This document shows, piece after piece, positions 11,947-28,088 of a stretch of DNA of 31,829 nt. Both the position numbers and the translations under genes were made by a program. This stretch comes from a virus. The notes beneath the pieces are model-generated. The model worked only from the letters and a program-made list of their open reading frames with translations, was not told the origin of the DNA and ran no database searches. The stretch covers positions 1 to 31,829 of the IMG/VR virus record IMGVR_UViG_3300024346_000306; one strand, written 5' to 3'. Every line of letters starts with the position of its first letter. Position 1 is the stretch's first letter.

Positions 11947-11950
11947 AACT

Positions 11951-12427
11951 ATGGATATAGCCACTGTCAGATTCACTACAAAATGGCCCCCTAATCCAAC
12001 AAGCCCTATCATTGCGAGGCTTGGTGGTTCAAAAGTCTTCTCTCATTGTATGACCATCATTGACGGGGTGGCCACAGAAGCAACAATGATTCATGGTTGC
12101 CGGAACGTACCTGTTGATATAGCAATGCAAGGTGTAGCAAAATATCAGGACATGTACGTACCTATACCTAATAAGGCGGGCGCAATAGCCTTTGGTGAAG
12201 ATCAAGAAGGTAAGGATTACGATTTTGCAGGAGCATTCGGCCTACCATTTTTAGCGTCGGACAATTGGGACGACTGGAATAAATGGTGGTGTTCTGAGAT
12301 TACGTTTATGCAATTGGCCATGGGTGGTACATGGATATTAGATCCGATTGTGTGTACTCGTGTTGCGCCGATCCATATATTGATGTGTAATTATCCAAAA
12401 TCAGAAATAATAACAGTAAGTAGTTGA
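11951..12427 (+). CDS. Permuted papain-fold (NlpC/P60-like) hydrolase
   Basis: 158 residues with circularly permuted papain-fold order: His first (SHCMTIIDG, H32), then YDFAGAFGLPF and the Cys in KWWCSE (C114). This YDxxG...W[WF]CSE arrangement is typical of YiiX/YaeF-like and lecithin:retinol acyltransferase-related phage hydrolases, which can cleave peptide or amide bonds in cell wall. It lies after the tail genes and before the lysis cassette, so it may help the tail cross the wall or act in lysis. The fold assignment is fairly secure; the substrate is unknown. Confidence 0.66.
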   Translation: MDIATVRFTTKWPPNPTSPIIARLGGSKVFSHCMTIIDGVATEATMIHGCRNVPVDIAMQGVAKYQDMYVPIPNKAGAIAFGEDQEGKDYDFAGAFGLPFLASDNWDDWNKWWCSEITFMQLAMGGTWILDPIVCTRVAPIHILMCNYPKSEIITVSS

Positions 12428-12452
12428 AGGGACGCGACTACGCACTGTTCAT

Positions 12453-12484
12453 AGGAGGTATCTGCCCGGATAAATAATTTTTTC
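12453..12484 (+). terminator. Orphan Shine-Dalgarno and weak terminator-like element
   Basis: In the 111-bp gap, a perfect AGGAGGT (12453-12459) is followed by no start codon at proper distance. A short TATC/GATA hairpin (12459-12472) precedes six T (12478-12483). It may be a weak terminator between tail and lysis genes, or the remnant of a lost small gene. Confidence 0.3.
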
Positions 12485-12538
12485 AGAGTGTGATACTATA
12501 TACTAAATAGTAATTAGTTTTGTTAATATAAAAATACT

Positions 12539-12889
12539 ATGAAAAACGCCGATAACCTTGATAGCAAAAAAATCAACCATCGCATCGGGGCCTTTATGCA
12601 TAAAGTACTTACCGTGGTAGGGGAGAAATTCCTGCAAATAATTGCTACATTACTAGCTTCAGCTATTGTTGCTGGTGTCTCTATCATGTGGAGGCTATCA
12701 AGCATGGTAGAAAATCATGAAGTCAGGCTCCAGTCAATTGAAGCAAAGTATGTTTCAATTGATAAAATGAAAAATATGGAGTTGATTGCTGTCGGTGCAA
12801 AAGACGCCGTCGTCGAACTCAAACATGTAATTGAAAAATTTAGTGATAAATTAGACCGAGTAGTAGAACGTGCATCGGATAAAAAATGA
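12539..12889 (+). CDS. Single-pass membrane protein with coiled-coil tail (lysis cassette)
   Basis: 116 residues: a basic N-terminus, one hydrophobic segment (about residues 32-53, FLQIIATLLASAIVAGVSIMW), then a charged helical tail (VENHEVRLQSIEAKYVSIDKMKNM, to KFSDKLDRVVERASDKK) likely to form a coiled coil. It overlaps the endolysin start by four bases, so it belongs to the lysis unit. It could be a pinholin-like, antiholin or spanin-related component; no lipobox or signal-peptidase site is seen. The ribosome binding site is poor, and ATG 12596 is an alternative start just before the membrane segment. Confidence 0.6.
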   Translation: MKNADNLDSKKINHRIGAFMHKVLTVVGEKFLQIIATLLASAIVAGVSIMWRLSSMVENHEVRLQSIEAKYVSIDKMKNMELIAVGAKDAVVELKHVIEKFSDKLDRVVERASDKK

Positions 12890-16264: not shown

Positions 16265-16867
16265 CTACCCATTGCTCACGAGTTTTATTGCTGCCCCTAA
16301 TTTTGTTAAAATTCTGCGAAATTCTTTTTCTTGTGCAGCCTCAGCAGCAGCCCCAGCAGCCCTAGCAGCAGCCTCAGTAGCCCTATAAGCAGCCCAAACA
16401 GCAGCCGCAGCAGCAGCCTCAGCAGCCTCAGCAGCAGCCCAAGCAGCAACCCAAGCAGCAGCAGCCGCAGCAGCAGCCTCAGCAGCCCCAGCAGCAGCCC
16501 CATAAGCAGACCCAGCAGACCTAGCAGCAGCCGCCGCCGCAGCAGCCCTAGCAGCATCCAGTTCAATCTTAGTCGCTTCACCATTTGCAAATCTTTCAGC
16601 AACTTTTAAAGCATCTTTGCTACGCTGATCTGTCATTAGATGCTCTACTTGCCTTGCACAGAAAACAGCAAATAATCTGATCTCTTTATCGTAACCATTT
16701 ACTGCGCGTAAGCACCAAAGTGCATCGTCTAGTCCGTTACTATCCAACACCTGTAAAATCGATAGGGGCTCATCGTCAGGATTTGATTTATTTAACGTTT
16801 TTAATAACTTCGCCCAACCATCGGCGCATGGTTGAAATTCTCTAATTTTATTCAATGTTGTTTTCAT
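16265..16867 (-). CDS. Phage accessory protein with polyalanine helical repeats
   Basis: 200 residues. The N-terminal 95 residues (TLNKIREFQPCADGWAKLLKTL, DALWCLRA, RLFAVFCARQVEHLMTDQRS) match a recurrent phage/plasmid protein whose C-terminus is a variable Ala-rich tract. Here residues about 104-180 are almost entirely Ala with spaced Trp, Arg, Glu and Tyr, probably one long helix or helical bundle. The final AQEKEFRRILTKLGAAI closes it. The start has AAGGAG and overlaps the upstream stop. Function unknown; the repeat DNA is prone to length change. Confidence 0.7.
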   Translation of the reverse strand: MKTTLNKIREFQPCADGWAKLLKTLNKSNPDDEPLSILQVLDSNGLDDALWCLRAVNGYDKEIRLFAVFCARQVEHLMTDQRSKDALKVAERFANGEATKIELDAARAAAAAAAARSAGSAYGAAAGAAEAAAAAAAAWVAAWAAAEAAEAAAAAAVWAAYRATEAAARAAGAAAEAAQEKEFRRILTKLGAAIKLVSNG

Positions 16868-18511: not shown

Positions 18512-18541
18512 ATTGTACAACGTATTCAGGTGTTGTACAAC
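18512..18541 (-). promoter_or_regulatory. Paired-palindrome promoter/operator (copy 1)
   Basis: ATTGTACAAC (18512-18521) and GTTGTACAAC (18532-18541), 20 bp apart. On the minus strand this reads TTGTAC (-35 position), 17 bp, TACAAT (-10 position), about 45 bp before the ATG at 18467. The same arrangement recurs near 20012, 24781 and 27668. Confidence 0.7.
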
Positions 18542-18559
18542 ACTATTTTTTAAAATAGT

Positions 18560-18873
18560 TGTCCCTCATTACATCACCGTGAGGGACGTCGGTTGTTGTT
18601 TGTCGGGCTACCTTCATTTCTACGTACTGCCTCGATCAATGGCTTTAACGGGCTCGGGTACTAGCCGTCCAATTCCAGTCATGCGACTAACAACAAATTT
18701 GAAAACTACGCCCACAATTGCCCGTAGGTCGAGGGTTGCTTTCGCTGGCTCTTTGCAGTTTTCAAATTTGTTACCCCTCTTGCGAAGGGCTTGTACTAAC
18801 CGAATCGGCCATTCTATTTAGCTTCGGTCGCCGTTTATGGAGTGCTGCCGGGTATTCTTAATTCTATCTGGTT
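18560..18873 (-). other. Structured gene-free region (possible ncRNA or gene remnant)
   Basis: No convincing gene starts in the gap between the thymidylate-synthase-like stop and the 18467 operon. The base composition looks richer in G+C than the neighbours. On the minus strand there is a 57-codon stretch without a start (reading ... RKRGNKFENCKEPAKATLDL ... SRMTGIGRLVPEPVKAIDRGST), then in another frame a second open stretch ending VARQTTTDVPHGDVMRDNYF. These may be remains of a frameshifted gene. Several hairpins are present, including 18561-18587 (GTCCCTCA with TGAGGGAC), which could end transcription before copy 1 of the promoter. Confidence 0.4.
18692..18772. repeat. 16-bp perfect inverted repeat
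   Basis: AACAAATTTGAAAACT (18692-18707) is the exact reverse complement of 18757-18772, with 49 bases between. In RNA this would form a stable 16-bp stem inside the gene-free region. Confidence 0.8.
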
Positions 18874-19695
18874 TTATACAGCCATCGTCATTTTGATTGG
18901 CTCACCATGAGAGTAGCCTGCTAAGCGTACTGATGTACGCTTAAATGATGTTACGGGGGCACCTAACGCAGACTCAAGCACTAAAGTCGGGGGCTTGTGA
19001 ATCTCACGTTGTATATACGCCCTTACACCCTCATCATTAGATGTGTATATATGCGCATCGGCTAAAAAGGCAGTTAGCTTTCTAGGTTTTAGCATCAACT
19101 CGTTAGCAATTAGAGTTTGCAATAACGCATAGCTAGCAACATCAAAAGGCAAGCCAAGGGCTATATCAACGGACCGCATATAGAAGCACAAATCTAAAAA
19201 CCCATGAGCAATTGATAGCTGCCACATAACATGGCATGCAGGTAGCGCAACTAATGAGCTATCTTGTGCCTCATCGGGCAACCATGCGGACACTAGCAAA
19301 CGCCTAGAATTTGGGTTTGCTTTGGCTTCCGCAAGTACAAAAGCCAACTGGTCCAAATCCCCCGGTTGGGATCCACGCCAAACGCGACCATAAATAGGAC
19401 CAAGATCTGTGTTATTAGGTCTATTTGTTCTTGCATTAAAATCCGCAAGGTTTGCGTCCCAAATATGACAACCTCGTGCGTGGAATTCACGAATATCGTG
19501 AATTCCATGTATAAAGCATTCAAGCTCGGCTGCAACAACGTTAAATGCTAATTTACGACCTGTTATAGCGGGGAACCCGTCTCGTAAATCAAAATCAATG
19601 ACTTCATGATGCACGCTACGTACTTCTCCGGCACGGGACTTTTTTAAAACACCGTTGGAATAAACACGGCTAATTAGGTTGCGATAGTCTTTCAT
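18874..19695 (-). CDS. Thymidylate-synthase-family enzyme, predicted dCMP-specific
   Basis: 273 residues, full ThyA length. Visible motifs: the helix with E57 of AAELECF, W79 of IWDAN, LGPIYGRVWR (Y102), NPNSRRLLVSAW (R131/R132 phosphate binding), LPACHVMWQL with catalytic C154, FYMRSVDIALGLPFDVASYALL, DAHIY (H215, Y217) and C-terminal IKMTMAV for folate closure. The key oddity is D185 in GLPFD: ThyA enzymes have Asn here (GLPFN), which recognises uracil, while dCMP hydroxymethylases have Asp, and Asn-to-Asp mutants of ThyA prefer dCMP. I therefore predict a dCMP methylase or hydroxymethylase rather than an ordinary thymidylate synthase; which product is made cannot be told. SD AAGG precedes the ATG. 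Confidence 0.82.
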   Translation of the reverse strand: MKDYRNLISRVYSNGVLKKSRAGEVRSVHHEVIDFDLRDGFPAITGRKLAFNVVAAELECFIHGIHDIREFHARGCHIWDANLADFNARTNRPNNTDLGPIYGRVWRGSQPGDLDQLAFVLAEAKANPNSRRLLVSAWLPDEAQDSSLVALPACHVMWQLSIAHGFLDLCFYMRSVDIALGLPFDVASYALLQTLIANELMLKPRKLTAFLADAHIYTSNDEGVRAYIQREIHKPPTLVLESALGAPVTSFKRTSVRLAGYSHGEPIKMTMAV

Positions 19696-19798: not shown

Positions 19799-19969
19799 CT
19801 ATAATAAATCAAAAATGTAATCAGGTTCTAATCCAAGTTCGTCCTGTAGTACCTCTTCTGGATCACAACCATCTGCAACCATATCCCTACACTCTTTTAA
19901 AACTTTACGAGCATCATGTAAATCTAAACCGTCACGTTCCATCAATACTTCAATGATTGGTTGTACCAT
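19799..19969 (-). CDS. Conserved small acidic phage protein (56 aa)
   Basis: 56 residues: VLMERDGLDLHDARKVLKEC ... DPEEVLQDELGLEPDYIFDLL. This pattern (xLMERDGxxxxEAxxLxxEx ... DPEEVLxDExGLEPDYxFDLL) is a recurrent small protein in many phages and mobile elements, role unknown. A strong AGGGGAA precedes the ATG, and it is the first gene after promoter copy 2 (20012-20041). Confidence 0.7.
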   Translation of the reverse strand: MVQPIIEVLMERDGLDLHDARKVLKECRDMVADGCDPEEVLQDELGLEPDYIFDLL

Positions 19970-20011: not shown

Positions 20012-20041
20012 ATTGTACATCATATTCAAGTGTTGTACAAC
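20012..20041 (-). promoter_or_regulatory. Paired-palindrome promoter/operator (copy 2)
   Basis: ATTGTACATC (20012-20021) and GTTGTACAAC (20032-20041), 20 bp apart, giving TTGTAC-17 bp-TACAAT on the minus strand ahead of the 56-aa gene. It overlaps the last codons of the DNA polymerase gene. A third, weaker half-match, GTTGTGCAAT, lies at 19996-20005. Confidence 0.68.
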
Positions 20042-21822
20042 ACTATTCCCAAATCTTTTAAAATTAATTCAGATTTTGTGACATACCAGGTACGATCTAA
20101 ATTATCAGGGATTGAATCAGGTAGGTTCATTAACGGGATTGCACCATCAGTCATAGCCACCTTGTTCCCATTCTTTTTGTAGTTTATTGCGCCGGTTTCA
20201 TTTGTTGCATAATACCAGCGCACTGCCTTACCTAAATATTTATCACCCTTTACCGCACCACCCGTCACTGAACGAACCGATACAAACTGACGAATGTCAC
20301 TACACATCTTAATAGTCGTGCTGATAGGTATATCTAACTGAAGATAATCAATAACCGCTTGAGTACAAATTTGAGCAGTAGGAGTTTTAGATAATTCTGC
20401 ATCGGCGTAAGTACCTTTTGATTTATATGAGCTATCGGGTTTAAGGGCTAGGTAGTTGTTAATATCTCGGGAATAAATTGCAGTGTATAGTGTCTCTTCA
20501 GTATTAAACCCAGTGGTCTGTTCCCATTGAGCGATAACCTGGTCCAAAAGTGCCTTGTTCTTTACAGGGCAATAAATAACAATGCCGTCTGTATTTGCAC
20601 TCACGACCCTGATTCCACAAGCTTCAATGGTCTCTATCAACATCAATAAACAAAGTTGCCCTGTAACGGTAGTTTGAATGAGCAGGTTCGGGCCATACAA
20701 CGCTGACCACCTGGACCCGAACTTACCAAAACTACCATTGATGGTAACCTTAAGAGACTCATTAACGACTTTGTTACCTTCTCGTTTTGCTTTGATCCGT
20801 TTATCTACAAGATTTTTATATACAGTCAAAAAATCTTTACCGATATGCTTAGGGTAGAGTTGCTGACTCAAGATGATATTTGGGTAGTAACTAGTCACAT
20901 CTCTATCAATAACCATATAATCCTGGTCAGAGAGGTAATGTACCTTTTTCTCACAAGAATGAATCCCACCAATGCCCAACTGATACTCACTAGAACCTAA
21001 TGCAACCTTGAGCTTATTGACTCCTTCAGGTTCCAGTACGTTGCCTTTTTCATCGAGCGTAAATGGTTGTGTAGTGAATACACCTAGTGCTCTTTGAAAA
21101 TCTGGGTGAGAAAATTTGATAAATGGTGGAGCGACATATTTAAAAGAGAAGTCTTTAGGTAATTCAGGTCTAAAGACTCGCTCGCCTTTTATTGCCTCAA
21201 TCTGTTTTTTGATTACCGCTTCGGCAATTTGTGCGTCTGACTTTGAGCGCAGGTCAATGCTGTATTCAACTCCCATTTGTTCTCGCAATGCAATCTGACT
21301 CTTCAATCGTGTATAAAGATCGATTGTTGTATCTAGGTCGTTAATGCAATAACTTCCCAATAGTTCACGCTCGTCAAAATTAATGAGTGCACTAGGTTCA
21401 ATAGGTAGATCTTGCATCCGCTTACTATGCAACCTTCCCCCGTAAATCTTTAAACTCGCCTTACCTGGGGCCACATCAATTAAATCAATGTGGTCAATGT
21501 ATTTACATTTAGGCAGTGAGTAGTTTGATTCGGCATCCCATGCCTTCAGGTCATTGACAATAATGTCGTCAGATAGATCTTTTAGCAGTTGATTATCAAA
21601 ATTGGCGATTGCACCTTTTAGCAATAGTAAGTCGTAACGCTTACCGTTAAAAGTCACAATAGTATATTTTGACAGTATGGCTTTCAATTGTTCTACGTCA
21701 AATTCTGACCAGGTTGAACGCTCGAAGTTCACAACTTTACCGTTCTCAATAGACTTAATCGCAATCAAAAAATAATTGGTATAGCACTCAATATCTAATA
21801 CACATTTTGGCCGATTAGTCAT
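20026..21822 (-). CDS. Family B DNA polymerase
   Basis: 598 residues from the ATG at 21822 (GGGAG about 10 bases upstream; a GTG at 21843 is an alternative). The exonuclease domain has ExoI VLDIECYTNYF, ExoII TFNGKRYDLLLL and ExoIII YCINDLDTT. The polymerase domain has motif A DVTSYYPNIIL, motif B LKVTINGSFGKFG and motif C SANTDGIVI. Motif C has Asn in place of the first Asp of the usual DTD but keeps the essential second Asp, as in many small phage B polymerases. It replicates the phage genome with proofreading. At about 600 residues it is shorter than T4 gp43 and lacks obvious protein-priming inserts. It overlaps the dCMP deaminase gene by eight bases. Confidence 0.93.
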   Translation of the reverse strand: MTNRPKCVLDIECYTNYFLIAIKSIENGKVVNFERSTWSEFDVEQLKAILSKYTIVTFNGKRYDLLLLKGAIANFDNQLLKDLSDDIIVNDLKAWDAESNYSLPKCKYIDHIDLIDVAPGKASLKIYGGRLHSKRMQDLPIEPSALINFDERELLGSYCINDLDTTIDLYTRLKSQIALREQMGVEYSIDLRSKSDAQIAEAVIKKQIEAIKGERVFRPELPKDFSFKYVAPPFIKFSHPDFQRALGVFTTQPFTLDEKGNVLEPEGVNKLKVALGSSEYQLGIGGIHSCEKKVHYLSDQDYMVIDRDVTSYYPNIILSQQLYPKHIGKDFLTVYKNLVDKRIKAKREGNKVVNESLKVTINGSFGKFGSRWSALYGPNLLIQTTVTGQLCLLMLIETIEACGIRVVSANTDGIVIYCPVKNKALLDQVIAQWEQTTGFNTEETLYTAIYSRDINNYLALKPDSSYKSKGTYADAELSKTPTAQICTQAVIDYLQLDIPISTTIKMCSDIRQFVSVRSVTGGAVKGDKYLGKAVRWYYATNETGAINYKKNGNKVAMTDGAIPLMNLPDSIPDNLDRTWYVTKSELILKDLGIVLYNT

Positions 21823-22246
21823 GCTTGATAAACTCCCATTCACGACCGCTTGCTAGCCATAATTCTTTGCCACTAGCCACATAATCTTCATCAACAACAA
21901 TTCGTTTTATTCCTGTACACAGCGCTAATTTTGTGCAGCTAATACATGGGGCAGTAGTACAATACATTGTGTCAGCTGCGTCAAAATCTTTAAGTCGGGC
22001 AATGGCATTTTGTTCGGCATGCGCAGACATACACAAGTCTAACCATGTTCCTGAAGGTAAATCCGCACCAATGCACGGGCTAATAGTGCAATGGGCTGAC
22101 CCGGAATAAGATCCGTTGTAACCTGAAGACAGGATATATCCTTTACCTGTAATTACGGCCCCCACTCGCCTACGAGCACAAGTTGCTCTTTTAGCGAACA
22201 CTCGGGCAACTTCCATATAAGTACAATCTAATGTCGGCCTAGTCAT
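21815..22246 (-). CDS. dCMP deaminase
   Basis: 143 residues of the zinc-dependent deaminase family: SAHAEQNAIA (zinc ligand H76, catalytic E78) and TTAPCISCTKLAL (zinc ligands C101, C104), plus the dCMP-specific N-terminal VGAVITGKGYILSSGYNGS region. It converts dCMP to dUMP, feeding thymidylate synthesis. Lying between the DNA polymerase and the hydroxymethylase genes, it competes for the same dCMP pool. SD AAGGT precedes the ATG. Confidence 0.93.
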   Translation of the reverse strand: MTRPTLDCTYMEVARVFAKRATCARRRVGAVITGKGYILSSGYNGSYSGSAHCTISPCIGADLPSGTWLDLCMSAHAEQNAIARLKDFDAADTMYCTTAPCISCTKLALCTGIKRIVVDEDYVASGKELWLASGREWEFIKHD

Positions 22247-22440: not shown

Positions 22441-23172
22441 TTATTTACACCATTTACTTGAGGGATTCAAAATCCTGTATTCAGATTTTGAAATTGATAA
22501 CTCGCCTGTTTTTACAAAATGGTCAACTAAATAAAACTGACTCGGATAGACGTGCAAGCTGTTTGCGTTCCAGTATAAATTTCCAATTTTGACTTTAGGG
22601 AAGTGCTTTGATATTTGAGCTTGTGCGAGTAGATGTACTTTTTCATGCCAAGACCTATCTCCCTGGTAATTTACCGTCGCATCATTACTCCGCAGGTTTA
22701 CTATATAGTGTAGCCTATTTGACCGAATTAACAGTTGAGTCGAATAAGTACACATAAAGTCCCGTTTACCTCTACTGACACTATCTTTGTGCATAGTTGG
22801 GCGTATGTAAATCATGACTGCCTGCCTACTATTACGATTAGCCCTAAGCGATAAAATTGCACGGTCAAACTGATTAAAATTTTCCTTACTGAAAATAGCC
22901 CACCCATAATTCGAATTGATGGAGCCATCGTGACCGGCCACCTTGCCCCATATTGCTGGAATAGGTGGAGGTATGTCGGCGATATTTAGTGACTGGCTCA
23001 AATACCATTTCAATTCTCGTTGATTCCAATCCTCATTAGGTACACCAAAAATCATTGGCGAATCTGCGATGAACGAAGCATTGATAATCTCTAAATTTCC
23101 ATCCTCAGAAAAGTCTTCCTCTATCAACTTTTCAGCAAAAATATCCCTGATACTCTGCACAGTCACGTTCAT
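22441..23172 (-). CDS. dCMP 5-hydroxymethylase (T4 gp42-like)
   Basis: 243 residues that follow phage T4 deoxycytidylate hydroxymethylase along the whole length: IINASFIADSPMIFG, RELKWYLSQSL, GSINSNYGWAIFS, NRNSRQAVMIYIRPTM, DFMCTYSTQLLIR (catalytic C141), VNLRSNDATVNYQGDRSWHEKV, SLHVYPSQFYLVDHFVKTGE and SISKSEY. D172 aligns with T4 Asp179, the residue that selects cytosine over uracil. The enzyme would use methylene-THF to make 5-hydroxymethyl-dCMP for incorporation into phage DNA. It overlaps the MazG-like gene by four bases, linking it to a dNTP-hydrolysing partner as in T4 (gp56 with gp42). Confidence 0.92.
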   Translation of the reverse strand: MNVTVQSIRDIFAEKLIEEDFSEDGNLEIINASFIADSPMIFGVPNEDWNQRELKWYLSQSLNIADIPPPIPAIWGKVAGHDGSINSNYGWAIFSKENFNQFDRAILSLRANRNSRQAVMIYIRPTMHKDSVSRGKRDFMCTYSTQLLIRSNRLHYIVNLRSNDATVNYQGDRSWHEKVHLLAQAQISKHFPKVKIGNLYWNANSLHVYPSQFYLVDHFVKTGELSISKSEYRILNPSSKWCK

Positions 23173-24137
23173 CCCCTTTTAAATCTATCGTCTTTGTCTT
23201 TATTATTTTTAAAATGCTCCATCAGGATAAAGAGCTGCGTTCCAGCGTGAGCTAAATGGCTTAAACCGGATTCTTGGTCGTTATCCTCACCTGCCCAAAA
23301 TAACATCATATGGCGGATAATTGATCCGTAAGTCCTTGACCATACTACCGTGTCACCATCACGATACGAATTCGCATAATATTTTTTTGCACCAAAATCA
23401 AAAACATTGGCCACTTGCATCAATTGGTCGATTGGCAAAAGATCGACTCGCACTTTATGGGTATCATCTTTTGGACAAGGTCGAATAGGGTTATGTTTAT
23501 GCTCAACGATGGGGTTATGTTTATGCTCAACGATGGGGTTAGGCTTAGCTACCTGTTTCATCCAAGACGGGGACATGTCAGATAAGATAAAAGGGGTATT
23601 TAATGTATCGATATAATGTAGAGGTGGTGGGGGTGTTCCTCTCACTCGGTCCATGCGTTCTTTGCTAATTATGTCCTTCAAAGTTGCTTCAGGTCCAGTC
23701 CAGCCTTTTGGCTTAACAAGATCACGTTTAAAGCCACCCCGCTTTTCGCCATTTTGACCTAATTCTTTAGCCATATTTGCACGCATGACTGCCTCAAAAC
23801 CCTGGAGCAACGGGAAACCCTGACGTTCGAGCGTACCTATAGCAAACACGATCAAATCCAGTAGTGCGTCATATTGATCGACGGAATTTTTTGCGTCTTT
23901 ATACTCATCTAATTCTTCTTGCATTGCTGCAACTCTAAAATCAAATTCGTCTTTGGTCAGCAATGTAGGTCCAACTGTGTTATTCAGTCCAAACTTTTCG
24001 TGCATTGCTTTTACTAAATCCATCAATCTCGATTCCATAATTTCCTCTATTTGATTTTCTTTGATAGGTCTTGGGCAATTCCAATGGTAGCCGTTTATCC
24101 CACTGCAAGTATTGCAGTAATCTTCATTTTCACCCAT
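23169..24137 (-). CDS. MazG-like NTP pyrophosphohydrolase fused to dATP/dGTP diphosphohydrolase-like (MazZ) domain
   Basis: 322 residues from the ATG at 24137, chosen because GGAG sits six bases upstream; an ATG at 24191 is possible but would translate through a strong hairpin. A short Cys motif (YCNTCSGxxGYHWNCP) starts the protein. The first domain (LVKAMHEKFGL ... MQEELDEYKDA ... YDALLDLIVFAIGT) is an all-alpha MazG/PRA-PH-type pyrophosphohydrolase. After a linker with a duplicated NPIVEHKH comes a DUF5664/MazZ-like domain (DLLPIDQLMQVANVFDFGAKKYYANS ... SIIRHMMLFWAGE). Together they could degrade dNTPs, including dCTP to dCMP for the hydroxymethylase. Exact substrates are not visible. Confidence 0.78.
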   Translation of the reverse strand: MGENEDYCNTCSGINGYHWNCPRPIKENQIEEIMESRLMDLVKAMHEKFGLNNTVGPTLLTKDEFDFRVAAMQEELDEYKDAKNSVDQYDALLDLIVFAIGTLERQGFPLLQGFEAVMRANMAKELGQNGEKRGGFKRDLVKPKGWTGPEATLKDIISKERMDRVRGTPPPPLHYIDTLNTPFILSDMSPSWMKQVAKPNPIVEHKHNPIVEHKHNPIRPCPKDDTHKVRVDLLPIDQLMQVANVFDFGAKKYYANSYRDGDTVVWSRTYGSIIRHMMLFWAGEDNDQESGLSHLAHAGTQLFILMEHFKNNKDKDDRFKRG

Positions 24138-24151
24138 TTTAATCTCCATAA

Positions 24152-24179
24152 CAACCGACCAAAGCAACTTGGTCGGTTG
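24152..24179 (-). terminator. Strong 11-bp hairpin between genes
   Basis: CAACCGACCAA (24152-24162) pairs exactly with TTGGTCGGTTG (24169-24179), six-base loop. It lies between the DUF2815 stop and the ATG at 24137. No T-tract follows, so it is more likely an RNA-processing, stability or attenuation element than a full terminator. Confidence 0.5.
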
Positions 24180-24187
24180 GACTAACA

Positions 24188-24709
24188 TCAACCTAATGGA
24201 TCTTCTTTACTACCAAAATCAGCAAAGTCCTCACTTGCGTCCGTACGACCACTAAAGGCTTCACCGTCTTTAGTTTTCATGACATTGTCAAGTGCGATAG
24301 ACACGCCTTTGCCACCTGTAGGATGATCCCAAGCATACGCACGAATTGAGGCACGATAGTATGCTCCGCTGTATATCTCCTCAGCATCCAAAATTGGCTG
24401 CAAAGAAGAGTCAACAATCCCGGGTTTGTTGTTGCTGCAGGCTTGAATCACAAAGCAATCGACAAATTCCGGACGGTCTTCTTCATCTCCATCTTTAAAT
24501 GGTGACTTCAATTTAGGTGGGATTTTGCCGAATTTTGCTTTAGCTGTTTCGTCAACTAAAGCTTTAACCTTAGCAATAAATGGATCATTCTTAGGGATAG
24601 GCATTGTGATGGAATACCGAGGTTTTGCTGTTTCTGAACCCTTAATTGCATGGGGAACAAGTAAGTGAACAAATGAACCACGGAATTCCGGAGTGATAAG
24701 TTTCGACAT
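24188..24709 (-). CDS. DUF2815 single-stranded DNA-binding protein
   Basis: 173 residues matching DUF2815, an OB-fold ssDNA-binding family related in role to T7 gp2.5: LITPEFRGSFVHLLVPHAI, PRYSITMPIPKNDPFI, IYSGAYYRASIRAYAWDHPTGGKGVSIALDNVMKTKDG. The tail is acidic (DASEDFADFGSKEDPLG), as in SSBs that bind partner proteins. It is the first gene after promoter copy 3 and would coat replication intermediates. Confidence 0.88.
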   Translation of the reverse strand: MSKLITPEFRGSFVHLLVPHAIKGSETAKPRYSITMPIPKNDPFIAKVKALVDETAKAKFGKIPPKLKSPFKDGDEEDRPEFVDCFVIQACSNNKPGIVDSSLQPILDAEEIYSGAYYRASIRAYAWDHPTGGKGVSIALDNVMKTKDGEAFSGRTDASEDFADFGSKEDPLG

Positions 24710-24780: not shown

Positions 24781-24811
24781 ATTGTACAACACTTTGAATG
24801 TGTTGTACAAC
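24781..24811 (-). promoter_or_regulatory. Paired-palindrome promoter/operator (copy 3)
   Basis: ATTGTACAAC (24781-24790) and GTTGTACAAC (24802-24811), 21 bp apart. On the minus strand: TTGTAC, 18 bp, TACAAT, about 75 bp before the SSB start. Downstream, a 7-bp inverted repeat (GTTGCAA 24749-24755, TTGCAAC 24768-24774) lies in the leader. Confidence 0.7.
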
Positions 24812-24816
24812 GCTTT

Positions 24817-27667: not shown

Positions 27668-27698
27668 ATTGTACAACGCTTTGAATGCTTTGTACAAC
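27668..27698 (-). promoter_or_regulatory. Paired-palindrome promoter/operator (copy 4)
   Basis: ATTGTACAAC (27668-27677) and TTTGTACAAC (27689-27698), 21 bp apart. On the minus strand: TTGTAC, 18 bp, TACAAT, then the strong ribosome binding site of the 37-aa gene 10-15 bases further. It lies between the helicase operon and the YdaS-like regulator gene. Confidence 0.7.
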
Positions 27699-27713
27699 GC
27701 TTTGCGTAGTTTA

Positions 27714-27997: not shown

Positions 27998-28005
27998 ACC
28001 TTTAT

Positions 28006-28088
28006 CATCGGATAGGCCAGCGCGGCCGAAAAGACAGTTCCTAGTCTGTTTTCCGATGGTCCTTTATACTAGGCTGTTTTCTAGGAAC
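28006..28088 (+). promoter_or_regulatory. Structured leader RNA of the primase operon
   Basis: CATCGGA (28006-28012) pairs with TCCGATG (28052-28058), enclosing two hairpins: GGCC/GGCC (28015-28027) and AAA-GA-CAG/CTGTTT around the loop TTCCTAGT. GTTCCTAG (28037-28044), mostly that loop, is the exact complement of CTAGGAAC (28081-28088), which holds the ribosome binding site for the ATG at 28095. The leader could therefore switch between folds that hide or expose the site. Confidence 0.5.

Follow-up and report, generated by a model that had tools for sequence, protein, structure and literature searches.

An Asn-to-Asp change in thymidylate synthase (TS, ThyA) switches its preference from dUMP to dCMP, which PMC8670742 presents as established for the E. 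coli and L. casei enzymes through the studies it cites. In the MetaGPA analysis (eLife 2021), residue 177 was among the top separating positions, with Asn on unmodified and Asp on modified contigs, and TS, pyrophosphohydrolase and dCMP deaminase co-occur on cytosine-modified phage contigs (PMC8670742). In the DNA of phage Xp12, 100% of the C is 5mC (PMC7653180), and a dCMP methyltransferase is made in Xp12-infected cells (PMC8543423). Hydroxymethylation by T4 gp42 has a signature of its own, which comprises Ser94, Tyr96 and Asp145, the last placed three positions ahead of the catalytic Cys; TS has Leu at the Asp145 place together with a sealing tail, and the gp42 D145N mutant gives no hmdCMP (PMC6400193).

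The stretch analysed here (the window, 31,829 nucleotides) is a 31.8-kb linear IMG/VR virus record that carries both a ThyA-like and a gp42-like gene. Its minus-strand early genes run in the order SNF2 helicase, DUF2800, Enc34-type SSB, MazG/dGTP-diphosphohydrolase fusion and gp42 homologue, followed on the same strand by a dCMP deaminase, a B-like DNA polymerase, a 56-aa ORF and the ThyA-like gene. The main features are as follows, ThyD being the name used here for the Asp-type ThyA homologue.

18513-18543, no strand assigned: second copy of the paired TTGTACAA palindrome, downstream of ThyD
18874-19695, minus strand: ThyD, predicted dCMP C5-methylase (PF00303, residue mapping, AlphaFold model)
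19141-19143, minus strand: codon GAT for Asp185, at the place of E. coli Asn177 (residue mapping)
19234-19236, minus strand: codon of the catalytic Cys154 (residue mapping)
19799-19969, minus strand: small ORF of 56 aa between polymerase and ThyD (ORF listing)
20013-20043, no strand assigned: operator-like pair of TTGTACAA palindromes ahead of the ThyD unit
20026-21843, minus strand: family-B-like DNA polymerase of the replication operon (phrog_1252, E=3e-195)
21815-22246, minus strand: dCMP deaminase with HAE..PCxxC motif (PF00383, E=5e-18; PDB alignments)
22441-23172, minus strand: gp42-like predicted dCMP hydroxymethylase with an S87/Y89/D138/C141/D172 signature (PDB 1b49, E=3e-62; alignment)
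23169-24191, minus strand: MazG-like domain fused to a dATP/dGTP diphosphohydrolase domain (PF01503, E=4e-7; PF18909, E=1e-26)
24782-24813, no strand assigned: paired TTGTACAA palindrome upstream of the SSB-MazG-gp42-deaminase-polymerase operon
27669-27700: paired TTGTACAA palindrome, the fourth in the window

The ThyD ORF encodes 273 aa, with an ATG start and no internal stop, and belongs to the TS fold family by a PF00303 match over residues 2-273 (E=5e-64). Its AlphaFold model (pLDDT 85, pTM 0.87) aligns with solved thymidylate synthases over residues 1-273, tail included (Z 33-34). Residues were mapped from E. coli ThyA, the sequence of which was verified against PDB 1aob: R21 corresponds to R21, E58 to E57, W80 to W79, Y94 to Y102, R126/R127 to R131/R132, C146 to C154, H147 to H155, R166 to R174, S167 to S175, D169 to D177, N177 to D185, H207 to H215, Y209 to Y217 and the C-terminal I264 to V273. 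An earlier, sequence-only reading of this DNA had listed C154, R131/R132, Y102, H215 and Y217 as ThyA catalytic landmarks and had seen GLPFN changed to GLPFD at D185; the alignment bears out the landmarks, their numbering and the position of the substitution, and that reading's account of the Asn-to-Asp switch agrees with the studies cited in PMC8670742. Compared with the ThyA enzymes of E. coli and T4 (td), ThyD shares the full-length fold, the tail and all other catalytic residues, but the Asn of dUMP-specific ThyA is replaced by Asp185. With its catalytic Cys, Arg, Tyr and His intact, it is an Asp-type (D177) TS. The warning that homology would misannotate such a protein as thymidylate synthase was apt: with NCBIfam's equivalog model for 'thymidylate synthase', TIGR03284, ThyD reaches 180 bits where the cut-off is 108, a match that we rejected as evidence for dTMP synthesis. 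Curated models give Asp-type ThyA the name of thymidylate synthase, and phage annotation therefore hides a cytosine-modifying enzyme class.

It seems likely to us that ThyD descends from ThyA and acts in the phage as a deoxycytidylate C5-methylase, alongside a gp42-type dCMP hydroxymethylase. ThyD very probably prefers dCMP, and, given that substrate, its product is a good deal more likely to be methyl than hydroxymethyl. With Asp185 in place of the uracil-reading Asn, dCMP would be bound and activated at N3, Cys154 would attack C6, and the one-carbon unit would come from methylene-tetrahydrofolate. With the site closed by the ThyA tail and no water-activating Asp present, the intermediate would be reduced by hydride rather than hydrated, giving 5-methyl-dCMP with dihydrofolate as by-product. 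The MazG-type pyrophosphohydrolase (a possible dCTPase in the form of the fusion protein) and the dCMP deaminase could be common to ThyD and the gp42-type enzyme. The 5-methyl-dCMP could then be incorporated into DNA as 5mC or be converted by deamination to thymidylate, a step described for Xp12.

The Asp-type class is already known in phages and is less new than the earlier reading implied: ThyD is a new member of it, and the novelty lies in its pairing with gp42. ThyD shares with the D177 TS homologues of MetaGPA both the residue and the company of PRA-PH/MazG and dCMP deaminase, whereas the window adds a gp42-type enzyme and ThyD retains His147. This residue, H155 in ThyD, is that of dUMP enzymes at the second MetaGPA separating position and counts against the dCMP-methylase reading; His stands at this place in 63 of the 68 Asp-type proteins of our scans, as it does in ThyD. 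The Xp12 group was represented by its close relatives DoCa6 and PaMx74, in which an Asp-type TS (GLPYD) adjoins a dCMP deaminase, PaMx74 also having a MazG-type pyrophosphohydrolase neighbour like the window. The TS fold, Asp at 177 and the deaminase neighbour are thus shared, but ThyD and the DoCa6 TS are only 28% identical, and the Xp12-group enzymes, unlike ThyD, have Pro for His147, Asn for Leu143 and no ThyA tail. Each Xp12-group record, unlike the window, holds a single PF00303 gene.

The closest GenBank phage match to ThyD (40%) is td of Aeromonas phage GomatiRiver_11 (L279; OP967013.2, 15800-16639), which is also Asp-type (GAPFD). Unlike the window, this is a T4-like 168-kb phage with DHFR beside td and no detectable gp42. 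Its annotation includes cd, frd, a DenB-like endonuclease and a host-transcription inhibitor. In T4, DenB and the host-transcription inhibitor act against C-containing DNA. Since GomatiRiver_11 combines these two genes and a GAPFD td with the lack of a detectable gp42, an Asp-type td is apparently able to replace gp42, and GomatiRiver_11 is probably another cytosine-modified phage whose enzyme is annotated as thymidylate synthase.

ThyD has the fold of T4 gp42 and its dCMP-selecting Asp (gp42 Asp179), but departs from it where the type of product would be decided: Leu151 occupies the Asp145 place, Pro100 the Ser94 place, and the ThyA C-terminal tail is kept. Having neither an Asp at position -3 relative to the catalytic Cys nor a Ser at -2 relative to the catalytic Tyr, and having the tail, ThyD reads as a methylase. 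The tail alone is not decisive between methyl and hydroxymethyl, because the Xp12-group enzymes are without it; the DoCa6 TS has Asn at the Asp145 place, which is compatible with methylation. The gp42 homologue of the window, 45-48% to T4-type gp42, has the equivalents of Ser94, Tyr96, Asp145, Cys148 and Asp179 in S87, Y89, D138, C141 and D172, and since it also has no ThyA tail it reads as a hydroxymethylase. The phage would then possess two dCMP-modifying enzymes of different lineages, one Asp-type ThyA-like and one gp42-like, as the sequence-only reading had suggested, and the published signature residues (PMC6400193) support its proposal that methyl and hydroxymethyl are divided between them.

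ThyD could instead hydroxymethylate dCMP, so that the phage has two hydroxymethylases or ThyD is replacing a decaying gp42, but this appears unlikely. Chemistry of the gp42 type would already be in use in this phage, and a second dCMP enzyme looks redundant beside the gp42 homologue, which counts against the dCMP-methylase reading. The window gp42 may itself be altered or being lost, judging from an Asn where each of the 177 TS and 15 other gp42-like sequences listed has Gly, and from its 60% match to orthologues that match one another at 80% (for the polymerase, 74% against 77%); its distance to T4-like gp42 is ordinary. Hydroxymethylation would also fit the lack of DHFR enrichment near Asp-type genes. 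In a gene-company count of 64 Asp-type and 102 Asn-type genes, each flanked by 3 kb or more of sequence, the Asn-type being those among the matches listed, DHFR lies within 3 kb of 3/64 Asp-type and 19/102 Asn-type genes. Its rarity beside the former does not favour a dihydrofolate-producing reaction, and we dropped DHFR company as support for methyl transfer, the trend being the opposite. Against hydroxymethylation, ThyD has Leu151 and Pro100 at the places of Asp145 and Ser94, the water-activating residues of T4 gp42, and it keeps the ThyA tail. A search of 48 records, made up of the window and 47 more and almost all carrying an Asp-type ThyA, turned up no carbamoyltransferase, which would be a sign of 5hmC.

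The gp42 homologue lies 2.7 kb upstream of ThyD. Among 76 virus records scanned for PF00303, many of which are fragments, the window alone has an Asp-type ThyA together with a gp42 homologue; gp42 was found in none of about 50 other Asp-type ThyA records (many fragmentary), and in the T4-like records G065, G066 and G070 the partner of gp42 is an Asn-type ThyA. In one further record, two closely similar Asp-type (GLPSD) ThyA paralogues occur (L273; G040:7055-7858 and 11948-12751). With a methylase-type and a hydroxymethylase-type dCMP enzyme together, how one precursor pool is divided becomes a question, and the pairing raises two more: that of mixed 5mC/5hmC genomes, and that of the deaminase accompanying Asp-type enzymes as a thymidylate source.

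We regard it as quite improbable that ThyD still makes dTMP from dUMP supplied by the phage dCMP deaminase, with Asp merely tolerated. The NCBIfam name, assigned above cut-off, would agree with this, as would the nearby deaminase, the overall ThyA fold and the retained His155. However, Asp at this place turns ThyA into a dCMP enzyme in the studies cited in PMC8670742, other residues co-vary with Asp (see below), and the deaminase and MazG genes accompany Asp-type rather than Asn-type ThyA. In the count described above, 47/64 Asp-type but only 2/102 Asn-type genes listed have a dCMP deaminase no more than 3 kb away (Fisher p ~1e-24, kinship ignored), and 35/64 but 0/102 of those listed have MazG at such a distance (Fisher p ~1e-18, kinship ignored). 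The window has this Asp-type gene company: upstream of ThyD, the deaminase is found at 2.1 kb and MazG at 3.5 kb.

A dCMP enzyme has no need of a deaminase that destroys its substrate. According to PMC12088426, which cites Wang and Ehrlich 1982 and Kuo 1982, 5-methyl- and 5-hydroxymethyl-dCMP are substrates of dCMP deaminase, and the Xp12 deaminase converts 5-methyl-dCTP to dTTP; an aromatic residue at the place of T4 deaminase Tyr153 is there described as capable of contacting the 5-methyl. PDB alignments put Tyr122 of the window deaminase at this place. Because deaminases take 5-methyl substrates and Tyr122 is kept, a route from dCMP through 5-methyl-dCMP to dTMP is a live option beside 5mC in DNA. 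It is tempting to speculate that gp42 supplies hydroxymethyl-dCMP for the DNA mark, and that ThyD with the deaminase provides a dUMP-free route to dTMP, or else 5mC beside 5hmC.

The sequence-only reading had called for an alignment of relatives to see whether Asp is conserved, and Asp is indeed present in the window and in its nearest relatives, L040 (57%), L014 and L026 (both 53%). In the tree these form a four-member clade with full support, Asp in 4/4. The relatives were obtained through pattern scans and an alignment query; a single-protein search of viral contigs returned none. A clade-specific DNA pattern blind to residue 185 matched, among viral contigs, no others than L014 and L040, both with Asp, and the clade motif had 0 matches in 85,000 prokaryote genomes. 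Broader scans yielded 68 distinct Asp-type sequences, a pattern-selected set, and at least 109 Asn-type sequences; on the TS tree the Asp-type sequences cluster, with at least 7 changes forced. Met at the place of E. coli Q165 occurs in 50/68 Asp-type against 7/109 Asn-type sequences among the matches listed, and ThyD has this residue, typical of Asp-type enzymes, as Met173.

GAT differs from AAT by one base, and the sequence comes from an IMG/VR contig, so that Asp185 might be a sequencing error or the gene might have been joined by chimeric assembly. A single-base error is unlikely because Asp is found throughout the clade along with Asp-associated residues such as Met173. As to a chimera, the gene is flanked on either side by a copy of the phage's operator-like motif, one of them at the conserved post-polymerase spot, and its G+C of 44% and GC3 of 36% are in line with neighbouring genes. 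On these grounds we set both aside as very unlikely. Methylation of the ribonucleotide CMP, which the earlier reading had left as an option, is scarcely credible: MilA is likewise a TS-family enzyme acting on a cytosine nucleotide, but its CMP preference lies in Ala176 and Lys133, where ThyD keeps Ser175 and Arg131/Arg132 like the deoxy enzymes, and ThyD lacks the extra C-terminal helical domain; a MilA-type CMP hydroxymethylase was rejected on the same residues.

The four paired TTGTACAA palindromes of the window, with a spacing of 20-21, stand ahead of early operons, including the SNF2 gene, and mark a putative operator-like regulon. Most relatives (e.g. L042-L046, L050, L052, L058) have a TTGTACAA site just past the polymerase gene, and sites in relatives match those of the window at several places. 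Lying between two paired palindromes with such counterparts in relatives, the ThyD gene seems to be cargo wired into phage regulation.

By polymerase, the nearest kin are L042-L059 (mostly 68-77%). In these, three inserted genes come after gp42, and the records scanned contain no second TS gene; the window is without the insert, and its ThyA-like gene stands behind the polymerase instead. The insert (L042:6368-9371) lies between gp42 and the deaminase, and is found at the same position in other PolB relatives. As read in L042, it encodes a phrog_13881 protein of unknown function, a PLP enzyme of the threonine dehydratase kind and an unknown 378-aa protein, and may be a cassette for cytosine hypermodification. 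Neither the 378-aa nor the 319-aa protein of this cassette in the relatives had an informative Pfam or NCBIfam match, and gp42 of L042 ends early, overlapping the next gene.

Further features of the window were noted in passing. No homologue of the 56-aa ORF (19799-19969) was found. The 318-nt intergenic stretch past ThyD (18555-18872, minus strand) matched no Rfam family, and folds better than 100/100 shuffles (z -2.7). At 16265-16867 (minus strand) lies an alanine-rich repetitive protein of unknown function (phrog_18326), and at 28005-28074 (plus strand) a match to the int-alpA RNA family (Rfam RF02996, 44.8 bits).
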